DNA from: Acidobacteriota bacterium
GTDB lineage: Bacteria; Actinomycetota; Acidimicrobiia; Acidimicrobiales; RAAP-2
Direction: 5' to 3'
Assembly: GCA_018971185.1 (NCBI GenBank)
Contig: JAGXBH010000016.1
Span: forward strand, 1 to 43,219
DNA length: 43,219 bases
The notes beneath the pieces are model-generated. The model made no database searches. It had not been told where the DNA came from and saw only the letters and a list, made by a program, of their open reading frames with translations. Of the stretch, positions 5,728-12,254 are shown piece after piece. A program made the translations under genes and the position numbers. How positions within the stretch are numbered: the first letter of the stretch is position 1; each line of letters begins with the position of its first letter.

Positions 5728-7127
5728 CAACTGCCCTTCAACAATTCACGTACGACCTCGCGGTCGTCAAAGTCCTCCACCCGATCGGCGAACGTCTGAG
5801 TGGTCTCGTGCCCCTTGCCGGCCACCACCACCACGTCGCCGGGTCGCGCCTCCTCCAACGCCCGAGCGATGGCCACACGACGATCGGCTTCTCGCCGGAC
5901 GTCGGCGGGACCGACGACCCCAGCCATGATGGCATCAATAATGGCATCCGGCGACTCGTGTCGAGGATTATCCGAGGTCACGACGGTCAAGTCCGACATC
6001 TGCGAGGCGACGCGACCCATCGCGGGTCGCTTGCTCGCATCGCGGTCACCCCCGCAGCCAAAGACGCTCAGGACCCGTCCCTCGCAAAGCTCGCGCACCG
6101 ATGCGAGGAGACGCTCAAGACCCTGGGGGGTGTGAGCGTAATCGACGATCACTGTGAACTCACCTTGATGGACGACCTCGAAACGACCCGACACCGCGGC
6201 GACTCCGGCCATCGCCGCGGCGACCTCGTCCTCGCGCGCACCGAGTTCGACCATGATCGACATGGCCACGAGGGCGTTGTCGATGTTGTAGTCGCCCACG
6301 AGCACCGTGTTGACGAGGTGTCCGCGCCAGAAGAAGGCGGTACCCGACAGGCTGCTCGTGACGTCACTGGCGTCACGACGCGACACGGTCGTCACCGCGA
6401 GCGCGGTCGAGGCGGCGAGTTGCGCGCCGTAGGGGTCGTCGACCCAGATCACGGCGCGCGAGGAGTACTCGGGGCCGAAGAGCCGCGCCTTGGCCGCGAA
6501 GTAGGACTCCATCGTGTGGTGGTAGTCGAGGTGGTCGTGGCTCAGATTCGTGAAGGCGACCACGGCGAAGTGGCAGCCGACGACCCGCTGTTGGTCGAGC
6601 GCGTGACTGGAGACCTCCAGGGCCACCACCGAGGCGGGTCGGCTCGGGTCGAAGTCATGACGTAACCGCGCGAGGCTCCGGAAGAGTTCCGGTGCCGCCG
6701 GCGTCGTGCGCTCGTTGGTCAGGGTGCCGATGACGGCGCCGTTCCATCCGAGGGAGCGAGCCAGGTTCGCGACGAGCGAGGTCACGGTCGTCTTCCCGTT
6801 GGTCCCGGTGACGCCGACCAACTCGATCCCGGTCTCGGGGTGCTCACTGACCGCAGCACTCGCCTGCGCCAGCACGCGATGGATGCGCGACGCAGGAATG
6901 ACGACAACCGGCACCGCTGAGGTGATGGCGCGCGGACTCACGACGGCCACCGCTCCCCGCGCGACGGCGTCGCGCACGAAGTCGACCCCGTCGGCGTTCG
7001 ATCCCGGTAGCGCGAAGAACAAGGTGGGATAGACGCACCGGCGTGAATCGATCTCGATACGGTCGACCTCGACGCTCGCCGTCTGCACGTCCAAGGTCTC
7101 GTCGGTCAAGACGTCGCCCAGTTGCAT
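5727..7127 (-). CDS. murE: UDP-MurNAc-tripeptide synthetase MurE, meso-DAP type
   Basis: MurE adds the third residue of the stem peptide to UDP-MurNAc-L-Ala-D-Glu in the cytoplasm. The 466-residue product shows the N-terminal uridine-binding domain, the ATP loop GTNGKTT at 108-114, the EVSSHAL and TNLSHDHLDYH motifs, the carbamylated Lys expected at KARLF (213), VDYAHTPQGLE, and DNPRHE at 386-391. DNPR is the signature of enzymes selecting meso-diaminopimelate rather than lysine, so the wall should be DAP type (established for the family; the residue preference here is inferred). The ATG at 7127 overlaps the ftsI stop as TGATG. The frame stays open upstream but only as a shadow of ftsI. Confidence 0.95.
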   Translation of the reverse strand: MQLGDVLTDETLDVQTASVEVDRIEIDSRRCVYPTLFFALPGSNADGVDFVRDAVARGAVAVVSPRAITSAVPVVVIPASRIHRVLAQASAAVSEHPETGIELVGVTGTNGKTTVTSLVANLARSLGWNGAVIGTLTNERTTPAAPELFRSLARLRHDFDPSRPASVVALEVSSHALDQQRVVGCHFAVVAFTNLSHDHLDYHHTMESYFAAKARLFGPEYSSRAVIWVDDPYGAQLAASTALAVTTVSRRDASDVTSSLSGTAFFWRGHLVNTVLVGDYNIDNALVAMSIMVELGAREDEVAAAMAGVAAVSGRFEVVHQGEFTVIVDYAHTPQGLERLLASVRELCEGRVLSVFGCGGDRDASKRPAMGRVASQMSDLTVVTSDNPRHESPDAIIDAIMAGVVGPADVRREADRRVAIARALEEARPGDVVVVAGKGHETTQTFADRVEDFDDREVVRELLKGS

Positions 7128-8968
7128 CACGTCACGTCCGAGGCGATGCTGGCCGAACCGGTGAGAGGCCGGACCGTCGTGCCGCTGGAGGGGATGCTGT
7201 AGTGGCGCAGCGCGTAGGACATCACCCGCTGGAACACCGGCGCGGCGGCCGACCCCCCGTAAATGGTGGTCTGGGGTCGCTCGATGTCCACGAACATCGA
7301 CAGGACCGGATTCGTGGCCGGGGCGTAACCCACGAAGGTGGCGTAGAAGGCCCCGTTGAGCAGGAGGTCCTTGCCGGGATAGGGGATGTTCGCCGTCCCG
7401 GTCTTGCCCGCTACGGCGTAGCCAGGGATGATGGCGTTCACGCCGGTTCCCGCGAGCACCACCTGTTGGAGCATGGTGTTCATCGTCGAGGCGACGGCCG
7501 GCGTCAGGGCCTGACGCTTCGCGCTGGGAGCGGCGGGGAGCGTCACGCCGTTGGGTTGCACGTAGCCGCGCACCAAGCTCGGCTCGACGAACGTCCCCCC
7601 GTTGGCCACGGTGTTGTACGCGTCGAGGACCTGGATCGGCGGCACCGCGTCCACTTGGCCGATGGGCAGGGCCGCCTGGTCGCTCGCGTACCAACTGGCC
7701 GCGTTCACCAAGAGTCCCGCGGACTCGCCCGGGAAGTTCACCGCGGTCGTCTGGCCGAAGCCGAGGCGCTGGACCTGCGCGAGGATGCCGTTCTCCCCCA
7801 CCTTGGTTCCGACCTCGTAGGTGCCGATGTTCGACGACTGGGCCAGGATCTGGGTCGCACTCAGGTGTTCGAGACCGTGATTCTCCGCGTCGTGGAAGAC
7901 TCGGCCGCCCACCACCATCGAGTTGGGGATGGCGAAGACGCTCGAGGGGGTGATCACGCCCGCGGCCAACGCGGCGGAGAACGTCACGACCTTGAAGACC
8001 GAGCCGGGCTCGTAGGCCTGGGTGAAGGCCAGGTTGTTGATCGTCTGTTCGATGCCGGGCACACCCACCGACGTGCCCCACGCCGGGATGGGACCCAGCA
8101 GGCCCGCCTTGGTCGCGGTGTTGACGAGCGAGGCGTCCGCCAGGATCTGCCCGGTCTTCACGTCCATCACCAACGCCACCCCCGTCAATCCGCCGACGGC
8201 GCGCAACTGCGTGGCCAGAGCCCGCTCGGTCACGAACTGCAGGGGTGCATCGATGGTGAGCTCAAGACCCACCCCGGGCTGCGCGGCCTTGACGACGTGA
8301 CTGTAGGTACTGGGCAGGGCCACCCCGGAGGACGAGACGAACTCGCGCGTGATGCCGGTCTGGCCGGCCAGCTTGGACTGGTACTGGTACTCCAGGCCCG
8401 TCGATCCCGCGCCGGAAGCGTTGGTGCGGCCGAGTAGCGACTCGGCCAGGGTGCCGTTGGGATAGGAGCGGCTCGACGCGTCCTGCACGACGATCCCTGG
8501 GAAGTTGCCGTTGGTGATCGCCTTGCCGTCGGTCAGGTCGAGTTGCCCGTTCAAGATGACGTAGCCGCTCCCCTTCCCCTTCTTCGACAGGAGCGTCGTC
8601 AACTTGGCCACCGGAACCTTGACCAGTCCGCTCAGGGCGAGTGCCTCCTGGTGGGGCTGGGCGATCTGCATGTCGTCGGCGATGACCATGGACGTGGGTT
8701 CAGAGATCGCCAGCACTTGTCCGTTGCGGTCGTAGATGCCCGCGCGAAGCGCGTTGGTGGTCAGATCATGACGCACTTGGTCGACCGATAGCTGCGCGTA
8801 GTGCGCGTGGTCGAACACCTGCAGCGCCACCAGTCGCGCGGCGAGGGCGGCAAAGACGATGATGAACAGCCCGCGCACCAGTTGAAGGCGCCGCGGGGAG
8901 AAGGCGGGGCCCGAGCTGCGTCGGCCGAGCTGACGGCGCGCGTGGGTCGGCGACGCGTGAACGCTCAC
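7127..8968 (-). CDS. ftsI: Division-specific class B penicillin-binding protein FtsI (PBP3)
   Basis: This 613-residue septal transpeptidase has a basic cytoplasmic start, one membrane anchor at about 32-52, a dimerisation/pedestal domain, and a C-terminal transpeptidase domain. The active-site triad is complete: SVFK at 323-326, SSN at 378-380 and KTGTA at 522-526. No PASTA repeats are seen. It should pair with FtsW encoded downstream. The GTG start at 8968 overlaps the stop of the ftsL-like gene (GTGA), and its own stop overlaps murE (TGATG). Confidence 0.95.
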   Translation of the reverse strand: MSVHASPTHARRQLGRRSSGPAFSPRRLQLVRGLFIIVFAALAARLVALQVFDHAHYAQLSVDQVRHDLTTNALRAGIYDRNGQVLAISEPTSMVIADDMQIAQPHQEALALSGLVKVPVAKLTTLLSKKGKGSGYVILNGQLDLTDGKAITNGNFPGIVVQDASSRSYPNGTLAESLLGRTNASGAGSTGLEYQYQSKLAGQTGITREFVSSSGVALPSTYSHVVKAAQPGVGLELTIDAPLQFVTERALATQLRAVGGLTGVALVMDVKTGQILADASLVNTATKAGLLGPIPAWGTSVGVPGIEQTINNLAFTQAYEPGSVFKVVTFSAALAAGVITPSSVFAIPNSMVVGGRVFHDAENHGLEHLSATQILAQSSNIGTYEVGTKVGENGILAQVQRLGFGQTTAVNFPGESAGLLVNAASWYASDQAALPIGQVDAVPPIQVLDAYNTVANGGTFVEPSLVRGYVQPNGVTLPAAPSAKRQALTPAVASTMNTMLQQVVLAGTGVNAIIPGYAVAGKTGTANIPYPGKDLLLNGAFYATFVGYAPATNPVLSMFVDIERPQTTIYGGSAAAPVFQRVMSYALRHYSIPSSGTTVRPLTGSASIASDVT

Positions 8969-9444
8969 CGCTGCGTCCTTGATGTGACCGGCGCGTAACC
9001 AATGAATTTCGGCAGAGGCAGGATCGCATCAAGCGACGTGGCGGGAACCTGCGTCACTGACGTGGGGTTCACAAGATGGAGGGCGTTGGCCTGGGCCACC
9101 ACCGCACTGGGTGTCGAGAGATTGGTGAGCGCCCCCACCTGCGTGGCGTAGGTGGACTGGTCCTGGAGGACCTGGCTCTGCAAGCGGTGCAGTTCGACCT
9201 GACGATTCGTCTCGAGCATCGAGCCCATCAGCGACACCGCGAGGGCCATACACACGATGATCACGGACTTCTTCATCGAGGAGATCGACGCCAGACGACC
9301 CTGGCGGTGGGCGTGCCGGGGCAGCGTCGCACCTCGGGTCGTCGGCGTGGGGGCGACGCGCGGCGACGGGCGGGGCCGTGTGCGCGTCGGCGAAACGGGT
9401 GCTCGCGGCGTGACGTCGCGACGAGGAAGGCTGATGACGCTCAC
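8965..9444 (-). CDS. FtsL-like bitopic divisome protein
   Basis: This small protein of 159 residues has a Pro/Arg/Thr-rich cytoplasmic tail of about 55 residues, one membrane helix (VIIVCMALAVSLMG), and an extracytoplasmic segment that begins like a coiled coil (VELHRLQSQVLQDQ). Its C-terminal part carries the P-x-S/A-VVAQANALHLV pattern typical of actinobacterial FtsL-like proteins. Position between rsmH and ftsI is the canonical ftsL site. FtsL acts with FtsB and FtsQ to activate FtsWI. The GTG start at 9444 overlaps the rsmH stop (GTGA) and was preferred over the longer frame, which would run inside rsmH. Sequence conservation of FtsL is low, so the call relies on topology and synteny. Confidence 0.8.
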   Translation of the reverse strand: MSVISLPRRDVTPRAPVSPTRTRPRPSPRVAPTPTTRGATLPRHAHRQGRLASISSMKKSVIIVCMALAVSLMGSMLETNRQVELHRLQSQVLQDQSTYATQVGALTNLSTPSAVVAQANALHLVNPTSVTQVPATSLDAILPLPKFIGYAPVTSRTQR

Positions 9445-10382
9445 GGCGCCACCTTCTGAGCGGTGCGCAGTCGCGCCGAGCGGGCGCGCGGATTGGCCTC
9501 GACCTCGCGAGCGGTCGCGAGTTGGGCACTCGCCCGAGTGAGGTTCACGCGCGCCACGGCGCCACAGACGCAGCCGAGTTCCACGGGGCAGTGGCATCCG
9601 CCCGTCGCCGCCTCGTGCAGGGCGCGCTTGACCGCGCGATCCTCGCCCGAGTGGTACGAGATGATGGCGAGGAGACCTCCGGGCGCCAAGACGTCGAGAG
9701 CGCCTTCGATACCGGCGTCCAACTCGTTCATCTCATCGTTGACCACGATGCGCAGTGCTTGGAACACGCGAGTGGCCACGTGCCCGCGACGCCGCGCCGC
9801 CGCCGGAACCGCTCGCTCCACCGCGGCGGTGAGCTCGCCGGTCGTCTGCGGCTGGGCGTCGAGGATGGAACGCGCGATGGCGCCGGCGAAGCGATCCTCG
9901 CCGTTGGCGCGAAGCTGGCGGACGAGTTCGTGCACTTCGACCGTCGCGAGGTACTGCGCGGCGGTGACGCCGCGCGTCGGGTCCATCCGCATGTCGAGCG
10001 GGGCATCGGCGCGAAAGGAGAAGCCTCGACTCGACTCGTCGAGTTGGTGTGACGAGACCCCGAGGTCCATGAGGACCCCCGTGACAGGTTCGCCCGCGAG
10101 GAAGTCGGCGTTACGCGCGACGACGTCGCGAATCGTGGCGAAGGTCGCCTCGACGATTCGCACGCGTGACGCGAAGGGAGCCAATCGTCGGGTCGCGGCG
10201 TCGCGCGCCTCTGGGTCACGGTCGATGCCGAGGACTCGCCGGATGGGCGACGCCGCCAGTAGGGCCGAACTGTGGCCGCCGCCTCCCATCGTGGCGTCGA
10301 CCAGCACCCCCGTCGGCTGGCGGGCGAAGAACTCGACGATCTCTCGTTCGAGAACGGGCTGGTGATAGGTGTCCTGGGCCAT
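9441..10382 (-). CDS. rsmH: 16S rRNA (cytosine1402-N4)-methyltransferase RsmH (MraW)
   Basis: RsmH methylates C1402 in the ribosomal P site using S-adenosylmethionine. The 313-residue product starts with the family N-terminus YHQPVLEREIVEFF and shows VDATMGGGGHSSALL (SAM loop), GIDRDPEA, the LMDLGVSSHQLDESSRGFSF block, and the C-terminal CHCP..CVC region seen in actinobacterial homologues. The ATG at 10382 is chosen because it has an AAAGG ribosome site at 10393-10389 and matches the family start. An in-frame GTG at 10499 overlaps the mraZ stop as GTGA but would add 39 residues with rare AGG codons and no family match, so it is less likely though not excluded. A 13-bp inverted repeat fills the gap to mraZ. 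Confidence 0.92.
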   Translation of the reverse strand: MAQDTYHQPVLEREIVEFFARQPTGVLVDATMGGGGHSSALLAASPIRRVLGIDRDPEARDAATRRLAPFASRVRIVEATFATIRDVVARNADFLAGEPVTGVLMDLGVSSHQLDESSRGFSFRADAPLDMRMDPTRGVTAAQYLATVEVHELVRQLRANGEDRFAGAIARSILDAQPQTTGELTAAVERAVPAAARRRGHVATRVFQALRIVVNDEMNELDAGIEGALDVLAPGGLLAIISYHSGEDRAVKRALHEAATGGCHCPVELGCVCGAVARVNLTRASAQLATAREVEANPRARSARLRTAQKVAP

Positions 10383-10393
10383 CTGCAGCCTTT

Positions 10394-10450
10394 CAATCGC
10401 CGAACGCGGCGGGCGGGCGGAGAATGGTGCCCTGTCACGTTCGGCGATTG
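10394..10450 (-). promoter_or_regulatory. 13-bp perfect inverted repeat in the mraZ-rsmH gap
   Basis: Arms at 10394-10406 and 10438-10450 are perfectly complementary (CAATCGCCGAACG on the transcribed strand) around a 31-base loop. The 3' arm abuts the AAAGG ribosome site of rsmH directly. It could act as an attenuator or mRNA processing site, or set rsmH translation relative to mraZ. No U-run follows, so a simple terminator is unlikely. Confidence 0.6.
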
Positions 10451-10495
10451 CCAGGCTGCGCATGGTCCGCGACCGGTGCAGCGATTCACTCTCCT

Positions 10496-10918
10496 TCACT
10501 CGTCGTCACCTCGGATGAACGTCTCCTCGGCCACGCTCACCTGGGCGGCGTAGCGCTGGGGATTCCACAATTCGATGTGATCGAGGTTCCCCGCGACGAT
10601 CACGTCGCCCTCGAGTTGGGCGAACTCTCGGATCACCGGGGGCAGGGGGAACCGACCCTGACGATCGACCTCCACCTCTGAGGAATTCGTGGCCCAGAAC
10701 CGCGACTGGCGCCTCTCGTCCGCGCTCCCGTGTCGTCCGGCCTCGAGGTACTCAGCACTCTTGCGCGCGAACTCGCCCGGCGTCCACAGGGCGACGCAGC
10801 CGTCCATGTTGGGGCTCAGATGCCCCCCGTTTTCGAACTCGCGTCGGAACTTGGCGGGCAGGATGAGTCGACCCTTGTCATCCAGCGAATGCTGAAACTG
10901 GCCAACGAACAACAACAT
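10496..10918 (-). CDS. mraZ: Transcriptional regulator MraZ
   Basis: MraZ is the conserved first gene of dcw clusters, a DNA-binding regulator that represses its own promoter. The 140-residue product has two SpoVT/AbrB-like repeats: FVGQFQHSLDDKGRLILPAKFR near the N-terminus and SSEVEVDRQGRFPLPPVIREFA in the second half. The ATG at 10918 is chosen because it gives the family start MLLFVGQF and has AAGGGG shortly upstream; the longer frame to 10972 would read through the operator repeats. Immediately upstream lies a 10-bp phased repeat array that matches the expected MraZ operator layout. Confidence 0.94.
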   Translation of the reverse strand: MLLFVGQFQHSLDDKGRLILPAKFRREFENGGHLSPNMDGCVALWTPGEFARKSAEYLEAGRHGSADERRQSRFWATNSSEVEVDRQGRFPLPPVIREFAQLEGDVIVAGNLDHIELWNPQRYAAQVSVAEETFIRGDDE

Positions 10919-10936
10919 ACGACCCCTTCGTGGACT

Positions 10937-11002
10937 CTCCACTGCGCTCCACTTCGCACCACCATACTCCACTGCACACCACTACTCGCCAATTTGTGCC
11001 AA
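10937..11002 (-). promoter_or_regulatory. Probable MraZ operator: seven phased TGG repeats at 10-bp spacing
   Basis: On the mraZ-coding strand GTGGAG or GTGGTG occurs five times in exact 10-bp steps (10982-10977, 10972-10967, 10962-10957, 10952-10947, 10942-10937). Two weaker units, TTGGCA (11002-10997) and TTGGCG (10992-10987), continue the same phase. MraZ is known in E. coli and Mycoplasma to bind TGGGN direct repeats separated by five bases, that is, a 10-bp period. The array ends 18 bases before the mraZ start codon. Binding by this MraZ is inferred. Confidence 0.8.
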
Positions 11003-11091: not shown

Positions 11092-11751
11092 TCAGGCGAT
11101 GAGGAGGAGTTGACGCACCTCGACAGGCGCCGACCGCTCAATCAGTTCCAGCGTGAGATCGTCGCCGTCGAGGTCCAAGGTGACCAGGGTGTGATGCTCC
11201 AGCGCGGCCGCCAGGCCTTGGGGGACGTGGGTCAAGACGTCGAGCAGCATGGACGACGCACGCGCGTGGAGCACCGTGGAGAGGAAGACCCCCTCGCGCA
11301 CGCGCCACTGGGTGACGCCCACGGCCTTGCGGCCATCGACCATCACCTCGCCGGGACCCCTCGCAGCGAAGCAGGCCACCCGCGACGCCAGGTCCCCGGT
11401 CATCGGCCCCTCGTGCAGGGCGACCTCACCGTGGAGTCGCGACGCGAGAGCCGCGCGCCACCATTCCCCCACGTGTCGCGACATCGCGTGCACGTCGGGC
11501 GACCAGCGCTCGTCACCCGCCGGGATCCACCAGTCGAGCCACACGTCGTCGGGCTGCAACACGACCACCCCGCCCCCGCCGCGGCGGCGTCGTAGGGCCA
11601 CTTGATCGCGCTCGGGTTCCTTCAACACCTCGATCGACTGACTGCCCCCGAGCACGAAGGTCGGCTCGGCGCAGCGCACGACCAACATGGTCGGCGCGGC
11701 GAGCGCGCGCAGGGCGCCGTAATCGTAGAGTTCCTCCACCTCGACGTTCAC
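11092..11751 (-). CDS. Lipoate/biotin protein ligase family protein
   Basis: The 219-residue product resembles the LplA/LipB/BirA catalytic fold. The RRRRGGGGVVVLQP stretch corresponds to the substrate loop RRxSGGGxVxH, with the usual His replaced by Leu, and GRKAVGVTQWR corresponds to the Lys-containing KIxGxAQxR motif. Such enzymes attach or transfer lipoyl or octanoyl groups to E2 or GcvH proteins. The GTG start at 11751 overlaps the stop of the HNH gene (GTGA), so the two are co-translated. No lipoate-dependent enzyme lies nearby. The altered loop means the true acyl substrate is uncertain. Confidence 0.72.
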   Translation of the reverse strand: MNVEVEELYDYGALRALAAPTMLVVRCAEPTFVLGGSQSIEVLKEPERDQVALRRRRGGGGVVVLQPDDVWLDWWIPAGDERWSPDVHAMSRHVGEWWRAALASRLHGEVALHEGPMTGDLASRVACFAARGPGEVMVDGRKAVGVTQWRVREGVFLSTVLHARASSMLLDVLTHVPQGLAAALEHHTLVTLDLDGDDLTLELIERSAPVEVRQLLLIA

Positions 11752-12254
11752 GAGGCGCGGGGTAGGAACGGCGCCCAGAGCGGATCGGGATCAGGCAGGT
11801 GGCGCCAACGCCACCACGGGCCATCGGGGACCCGAGGCTCGAAGTGCATGCGCCAACCGATCTCCTCCAGCAGCCGGTCGCCCTTTTGCATGTTGTGACG
11901 ACGACACGCCGCCACCACATTGGTCCACTCGTGACGCCCGCCGCGACTTCGCGGCACCACGTGATCGATGGTATCGGCGTGCTCGAGACAGTAGGCGCAA
12001 CGATAGCCGTCGCGAAGCAGCAGGGAGCGGCGCGTGAGGGGCGGGGTGCGCACCTTGGAGGGCAGGCGGACCATGTCGTGCAGACGCACGATCGAGGGGA
12101 TAGTGACGCTGAGCGAACTCGAACGACACACGGGGGGCACGTCGGCCACCGCGATCGGCTCGGCGCGGCCCGCGAGCAGCAGGACCACGGCGCGCCGTTC
12201 ACTCACCAATTGCAGTGGCTCGAAGGTGGCGTTGAGGAGAAGGACTCGCCCCAC
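11748..12254 (-). CDS. HNH endonuclease family protein
   Basis: The 168-residue product has an N-terminal NATFEPLQLVSERRAVVLLL segment typical of a widespread actinobacterial and cyanobacterial HNH family, then a C-terminal zinc/HNH module: CAYC, the central TIDHVVPRSRGG, and NVVAACRRHNMQKG. These residues bind a divalent metal and form the nuclease site. The gene sits among housekeeping genes, not in a mobile element, and the cellular role of this family is unknown. The GTG at 12254 is supported by a TAGTTT hexamer exactly six bases upstream, suggesting a leaderless transcript. Confidence 0.82.
   Translation of the reverse strand: MGRVLLLNATFEPLQLVSERRAVVLLLAGRAEPIAVADVPPVCRSSSLSVTIPSIVRLHDMVRLPSKVRTPPLTRRSLLLRDGYRCAYCLEHADTIDHVVPRSRGGRHEWTNVVAACRRHNMQKGDRLLEEIGWRMHFEPRVPDGPWWRWRHLPDPDPLWAPFLPRAS

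Follow-up and report, generated by a model that had tools for sequence, protein, structure and literature searches.

The window, by which we mean the whole stretch of 43,219 nucleotides that was analysed, carries on its minus strand a dcw cluster that begins with mraZ, continues with mraW and contains, further on, a gene for a penicillin-binding protein. Upstream of mraZ, seven TGG units follow one another at exact 10-bp steps over 66 bp of the minus strand (11002-10937), and 18 bases separate the last of them from the mraZ ATG (at 10918, minus strand). The initial annotation had described five GTGGWG units and two TTGGC units at this place, and the sequence reads exactly so. Tandem Repeats Finder also calls a period of 10 at the array. 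From the distal unit to the dcw genes, the features are as follows.

10993..11002, minus strand: unit 1 (slot -4), TTGGCACAAA, degenerate (TTGGC)
10983..10992, minus strand: unit 2 (slot -3), TTGGCGAGTA, degenerate (TTGGC), off the GTGG consensus in the window
10973..10982, minus strand: unit 3 (slot -2), GTGGTGTGCA, in the -35/-10 spacer region
10963..10972, minus strand: unit 4 (slot -1), GTGGAGTATG, in the -35/-10 spacer region
10961..10966, minus strand: -10 hexamer TATGGT, predicted by homology, ending in the GT of unit 5
10953..10962, minus strand: unit 5 (slot 0), GTGGTGCGAA, overlapping the predicted -10
10943..10952, minus strand: unit 6 (slot +1), GTGGAGCGCA, likely in the 5' untranslated region
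10937..10942, minus strand: unit 7 (slot +2), GTGGAG
10923..10929, minus strand: Shine-Dalgarno-like GAAGGGG, read from the sequence
10496..10918, minus strand: mraZ, 140 aa; PF02381 in two stretches, E 1.9e-21, 76.3 bits (cut-off 23)
9441..10499 (open frame coordinates), minus strand: mraW/rsmH, the next dcw gene; PF01795, E 8.5e-89
7127..8968, minus strand: penicillin-binding protein (ftsI/pbpB-like) of the dcw cluster; PF00905 and PF03717

That the array precedes a true mraZ, as had been claimed, is clear from the PF02381 score. An AlphaFold2 model of the encoded protein, calculated as a monomer, has a pLDDT of 88.6. Its best structural match is the MraZ of Mycoplasma genitalium (9qlg, TM 0.81), and among the best matches it also resembles MraZ solved with promoter DNA at a TM of about 0.8 and 25-29% identity; the matches include 9sz7, entitled 'MraZ in complex with 4 box promoter'. 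A PF02381 score above the curated cut-off and a two-lobed fold thus place the protein in the MraZ family. Members of this family form ring-shaped oligomers of 8, 9 or 12 subunits. In named relatives, which are MAGs labelled Acidimicrobiaceae or Actinomycetota/Actinomycetes/actinobacterium and, in one case, Acidobacteria, MraZ is 83-94% identical.

An in-frame GTG at 10972 would open a 158-aa frame that crosses part of the array. We rejected this N-terminal extension of MraZ because the open frame of four distinct relatives (L013, L014, L017 and L073) starts one codon before the ATG, and because a 10-bp period keeps no reading frame. Directly upstream of the dcw cluster lie a weakly matching LplA/LipB-like ligase (window 11092-11751, minus strand; score 27.4 bits, cut-off 27) and an HNH nuclease (window 11748-12254, minus strand).

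Comparison with known MraZ boxes and with chance

MraZ boxes are TGG-cored direct repeats that recur every 10 bp, and an MraZ operator sits immediately before mraZ, the gene that opens the dcw cluster; the array has both properties. The E. coli mraZ operator was reportedly described by Eraso et al. in 2014 as a series of TGGGN repeats. Before mraZ of E. coli K-12 the phased boxes read AGTGGGAAAT TGTGGGGCAA AGTGGGAATA AGGGG, that is, three GTGGG units and a degenerate one. They share with the window GTGG-core direct repeats, 10-bp steps and the position directly upstream of mraZ, but have a G after TGG in each unit, whereas A, T or C stands there in all seven units of the window. In the accessible part of PMC7761207, the E. 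coli boxes are placed downstream of the -10, as is the MraZ-bound dcw operator of Burkholderia cenocepacia, which consists of four 7-nt repeats with 3-nt spacers; the boxes of the window, in contrast, number seven and cover the -10 from both sides. The M. gallisepticum site, given as (AAAGTGKN3)3 in excerpts of PMC5282649, likewise consists of 10-bp direct repeats with a GTG core bound by a homologous regulator, although the second core G may be T. Mollicute sites, including the four-box complex of M. genitalium (PDB 9sz7, 9r4j), have three to four boxes, in contrast to the seven found here. MraZ of C. glutamicum has also been studied, as PMC7761207 mentions. A literature search, limited for subscription papers, found no description of a seven-box or an Actinomycetota-wide MraZ operator, and the portions available of PMC9602371, PMC9395523 and PMC5138195 hold nothing on box number.

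The array is longer than chance would produce. The longest in-phase TGG run is seven. When the 200 bp upstream were shuffled 20,000 times with dinucleotides preserved, the maximum was four, which arose in three shuffles, and none gave five or more; in a pooled null 0 of 3,120 reached five of the seven slots. Within the genome assembly (~89% complete) the exact four-unit pattern occurs in this array alone, as four overlapping matches. Looser patterns elsewhere in the genome did not exceed their reversed-pattern controls, with 16 one-mismatch four-unit matches against 31 and four two-unit GTGGWG matches against four, so that no second MraZ target array was seen in the ~89% covered. Single or double MraZ boxes may still occur elsewhere in the genome.

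Conservation, promoter register and recognition sequence

The regions upstream of mraZ were taken from 34 same-genus, 22 same-order and 90 other Actinomycetota genomes and from 12 named loci, and were read outwards from the MraZ motif without alignment gaps. L060, L065 and L085, in which a regular expression found no DxKGR motif, were left out. Five duplicate upstreams (L066, L068, L070, L074 and L093) were dropped from the deduplicated counts and are still included in the distributions of in-phase number and in the base-after-TGG and off-phase counts. The phylum sample comprises 90 of the 145 genomes with a match, namely 30 automatic loci and 60 picked from a score-ordered list, and therefore leans to high-scoring MraZ. 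Close relatives are eight distinct upstreams with 83-94% MraZ identity. TGG is found at the seven slots as follows.

Unit 1: 1/8 close relatives, 10/32 other genus members
Unit 2: 7/8 close, 20/32 other genus, 0/14 order
Unit 3: 8/8 close, 28/32 other genus, 13/14 order, 34/61 phylum
Unit 4: 8/8 close, 29/32 other genus, 5/14 order, 46/61 phylum
Unit 5: 8/8 close, 10/32 other genus, 13/14 order, 52/61 phylum
Unit 6: 8/8 close, 30/32 other genus, 10/14 order, 30/61 phylum
Unit 7: 8/8 close, 26/32 other genus, 0/14 order, 8/61 phylum

The initial annotation had staked its reading on the 10-bp spacing being kept in close relatives, and it is kept: the five strong units are TGG in phase in all eight. 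In slots -2 to +2 of the window and these eight, 22 of the 25 box columns (G, T, G, G and the G at +4) are invariant, compared with 11 of the 25 others. TGG out of phase occurs in only 1-3% of sequences per position on average, and the array holds its place with respect to mraZ and the -10 across 51-94% MraZ identity. In slot -4, some of the other genus members have a clear AAGTGGG or AGGTGGG. The slot of unit 5 is TGT, mostly TGTC, in 20 of the 32 other genus members, so that many congeners have four to six TGG boxes. In L014-L036 and other congeners, TGTGTCAC mostly takes the place of GTGGnG where a box falls on the -10, which leaves a hole in the array exactly at the -10 in many of them. 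By eye, a perfect 13-bp palindrome, AATTGTCACAATT, can be read in place of unit 1 in L010, L069, L071 and L075, some 50-60 bp upstream of the -10 region; it is possibly the site of a second regulator. The window's copy (11005-10992) is broken.

The boxes stand in a fixed register to the predicted promoter. TAnnGT occupies the same place in relatives as the window's -10 hexamer, and in order-level relatives it follows TTGACg by 17 bp. In 14 of 20 order-level upstreams the array can be anchored to a TAnnnT hexamer that shares its final T with a box; two boxes lie in the -35/-10 spacer, one overlaps the -10 and one comes after it. AAGTGGnG-type boxes take the same register on the predicted promoter in 61 of 88 distinct upstreams from other Actinomycetota, where usually 2-4 units are in phase, not seven. 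Because the choice of hexamer rewarded nearby TGG and -35 matches, this register is partly selected for. No such -10-anchored array was seen in 27 of the 88 phylum upstreams, L099, L103 and L107 among them, or in 6 of the 20 from the order. In several of the 27 an element resembling TATGCAAGAAT seems to precede the boxes, and a second operator layout may thus exist within the phylum.

A -35 matching in at least 4 of 6 positions is found in 14 of 14 order-level promoters (16-18-bp spacer, typically TTGACg at 17 bp) and in 36 of 61 from the phylum. The corresponding counts in the genus are 0/1 for the window, 2/8 for close relatives and 1/32 for other members, or 3 of 41 distinct promoters. This rarity is no artefact of selection, since the choice of hexamer gave the same reward there. 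Across these 41 mraZ promoters the -10 is well kept while the -35 is nearly absent. Unit 2 occupies the -35 site of order-level relatives, shifted by 3 bp, and TTGGCG at a 20-bp spacer is the best-scoring -35 candidate in the genus, with 3.0-3.6 of 6 to TTGACA; we did not accept it. A spacer of 20 bp is poor for a sigma-70 promoter. A plain promoter scan found no classical sigma-70 promoter in the window.

The A or T after TGG had been taken to signal a recognition sequence shifted in this lineage, a view that the base counts per group do not sustain. The base after TGG is A in 51, T in 31, C in 11 and G in 8% of units in close relatives; T in 41, G in 31, A in 15 and C in 13% in the rest of the genus; mostly G (39%) or C (36%) in the order; and A in 50, G in 20, T in 18 and C in 13% of 189 units from other Actinomycetota. 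Information at this base is 0.15-0.35 bit in every group of relatives. The position is thus weakly specified in all groups, with A the commonest base across the phylum sample, and the third G of TGGGN is the E. coli form, not the general one. The next base is G in 92% (close relatives), 89% (rest of the genus), 73% (order) and 68% (phylum). Read from these sequences, the box consensus is AAGTGGnG.

Number of boxes in the genus and the phylum

The largest number of TGG units in phase within seven slots is, in other Actinomycetota (n=89), 2 (18 upstreams), 3 (45), 4 (24), 5 (1) or 6 (1), and hence 2-4 in 87 of the 89. It ranges from 1 to 5 in 20 sequences of the order and from 2 to 7 in the genus, where 19 of 44 upstreams have six or seven. 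A genome-wide search with a pattern of six exact units matched 23 of 99 genus genomes. In 22 of these 23 (the window's array included) the array lies directly upstream of mraZ, seven units being present in ten of them; 77 of the 99 do not have six exact units in a row. Among 396 phylum genomes, six of which belong to the genus, nine have a six-unit match. Outside the genus there are six matches in 390 genomes, of which only that in G102 is upstream of mraZ. Fisher's test for 22/99 against 1/390 gives p 1.4e-15, with genomes treated without correction for kinship. The array had been called longer than usual, which is borne out at the level of the genus: the length is genuine and hardly seen elsewhere, but in most members the exact units number fewer than six. 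Boxes have been added in this genus on either side of the core.

One genome, G214, has on contig C13 (215025-215107) a period-10 short tandem repeat, TGGTGACTCG-like, that mimics the six-unit pattern; there is no mraZ in the locus.

Predicted operator function and its alternatives

We consider it probable, at roughly 0.85, that the array is an enlarged autoregulatory operator laid over the whole mraZ/dcw promoter, which MraZ is predicted to bind with a likely repressive effect. The encoded MraZ ring would bind the seven AAGTGGnG-type boxes and so restrain its own operon. One ring would hold about four neighbouring boxes at once, as in the solved four-box complex, and seven boxes would offer several overlapping registers, and hence higher occupancy, or room for part of a second ring. 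Bound MraZ would then shut out RNA polymerase between roughly -48 and roughly +18 and so repress its own operon. The almost complete lack of a -35 in the genus suggests that, with the operator growing across it, the promoter core lost strength or came to need other factors.

Counting against an operator of the full length are unit 1, which is TGG in just one of eight close relatives, and unit 2, which is off consensus. It is possible, if the less favoured reading, that only units 3-7 are MraZ boxes and that units 1 and 2 are either remnants of an upstream or -35 part of the promoter or the site of a second regulator. Both are TTGGC and not GTGGnG, the site of unit 1 is a perfect palindrome in four close relatives though broken in the window, and unit 2 lies near the old -35. 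Yet both units keep exactly to the 10-bp phase, other genus members often have TGG in these slots (slot -4 in 10/32, slot -3 in 20/32), and as a -35 unit 2 would have the unfavourable 20-bp spacer.

The initial annotation had proposed that MraZ forms an extended arc. The solved complex has four boxes, so seven might be used by a single ring in different registers, by two rings or by one ring that the DNA wraps. The last of these is a speculative form of the enlarged operator, to which we give little credence. Seven boxes would engage nearly the whole ring, about seven of eight subunits holding one box each, with the DNA wrapped around the ring, or an opened ring lying along the DNA, like a small nucleosome; the genus would have made a three-to-four-box operator into a full-ring, strongly cooperative dcw switch and given up the -35. 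With 2 to 7 boxes in a fixed frame and the regulator available, the genus offers a natural series in which box number can be set against affinity, cooperativity and ring opening. Such a series bears on the way in which straight DNA is read by a closed MraZ ring and on why box counts differ between bacteria. It also links the growth of the operator with the almost complete lack of a -35 at the promoter from which the cell-division cluster starts.

Activation in place of repression seems unlikely. A polymerase without a good -35 would need MraZ bound upstream, and both the scarcity of the -35 in the genus (3/41, against 14/14 in the order) and the failure of the promoter scan would fit such a role; but actinobacterial promoters often lack a -35, and protein bound to the boxes, which span both the -10 and the predicted start, would stand in the way of polymerase. 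As far as the accessible text of PMC8475190 goes, the data from E. coli and M. genitalium are of repression, cell-division genes rising in an M. genitalium mraZ mutant, while in M. gallisepticum MraZ overexpression with raised FtsZ speaks for a positive effect and MraZ may be an activator.

A G-quadruplex formed by the G-rich array in DNA or RNA, in place of a protein operator, is very improbable. One is reported for the S. aureus mraZ promoter region in the part of PMC11796246 available, but the array offers GG only, with loops of 8, and not four runs of at least three G at short distance; moreover, a quadruplex needs neither the exact 10-bp step, which is kept in eight of eight close relatives, nor the sequence between the GG pairs. 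Least credible of all is a young period-10 simple tandem repeat without function: Tandem Repeats Finder does report the array, and the G214 repeat away from mraZ is a true example that matches the six-unit pattern, but no loss of phase or copy number is seen in close relatives, the box letters stay while the spacers differ, and the place relative to mraZ and the -10 is kept down to 51% MraZ identity.
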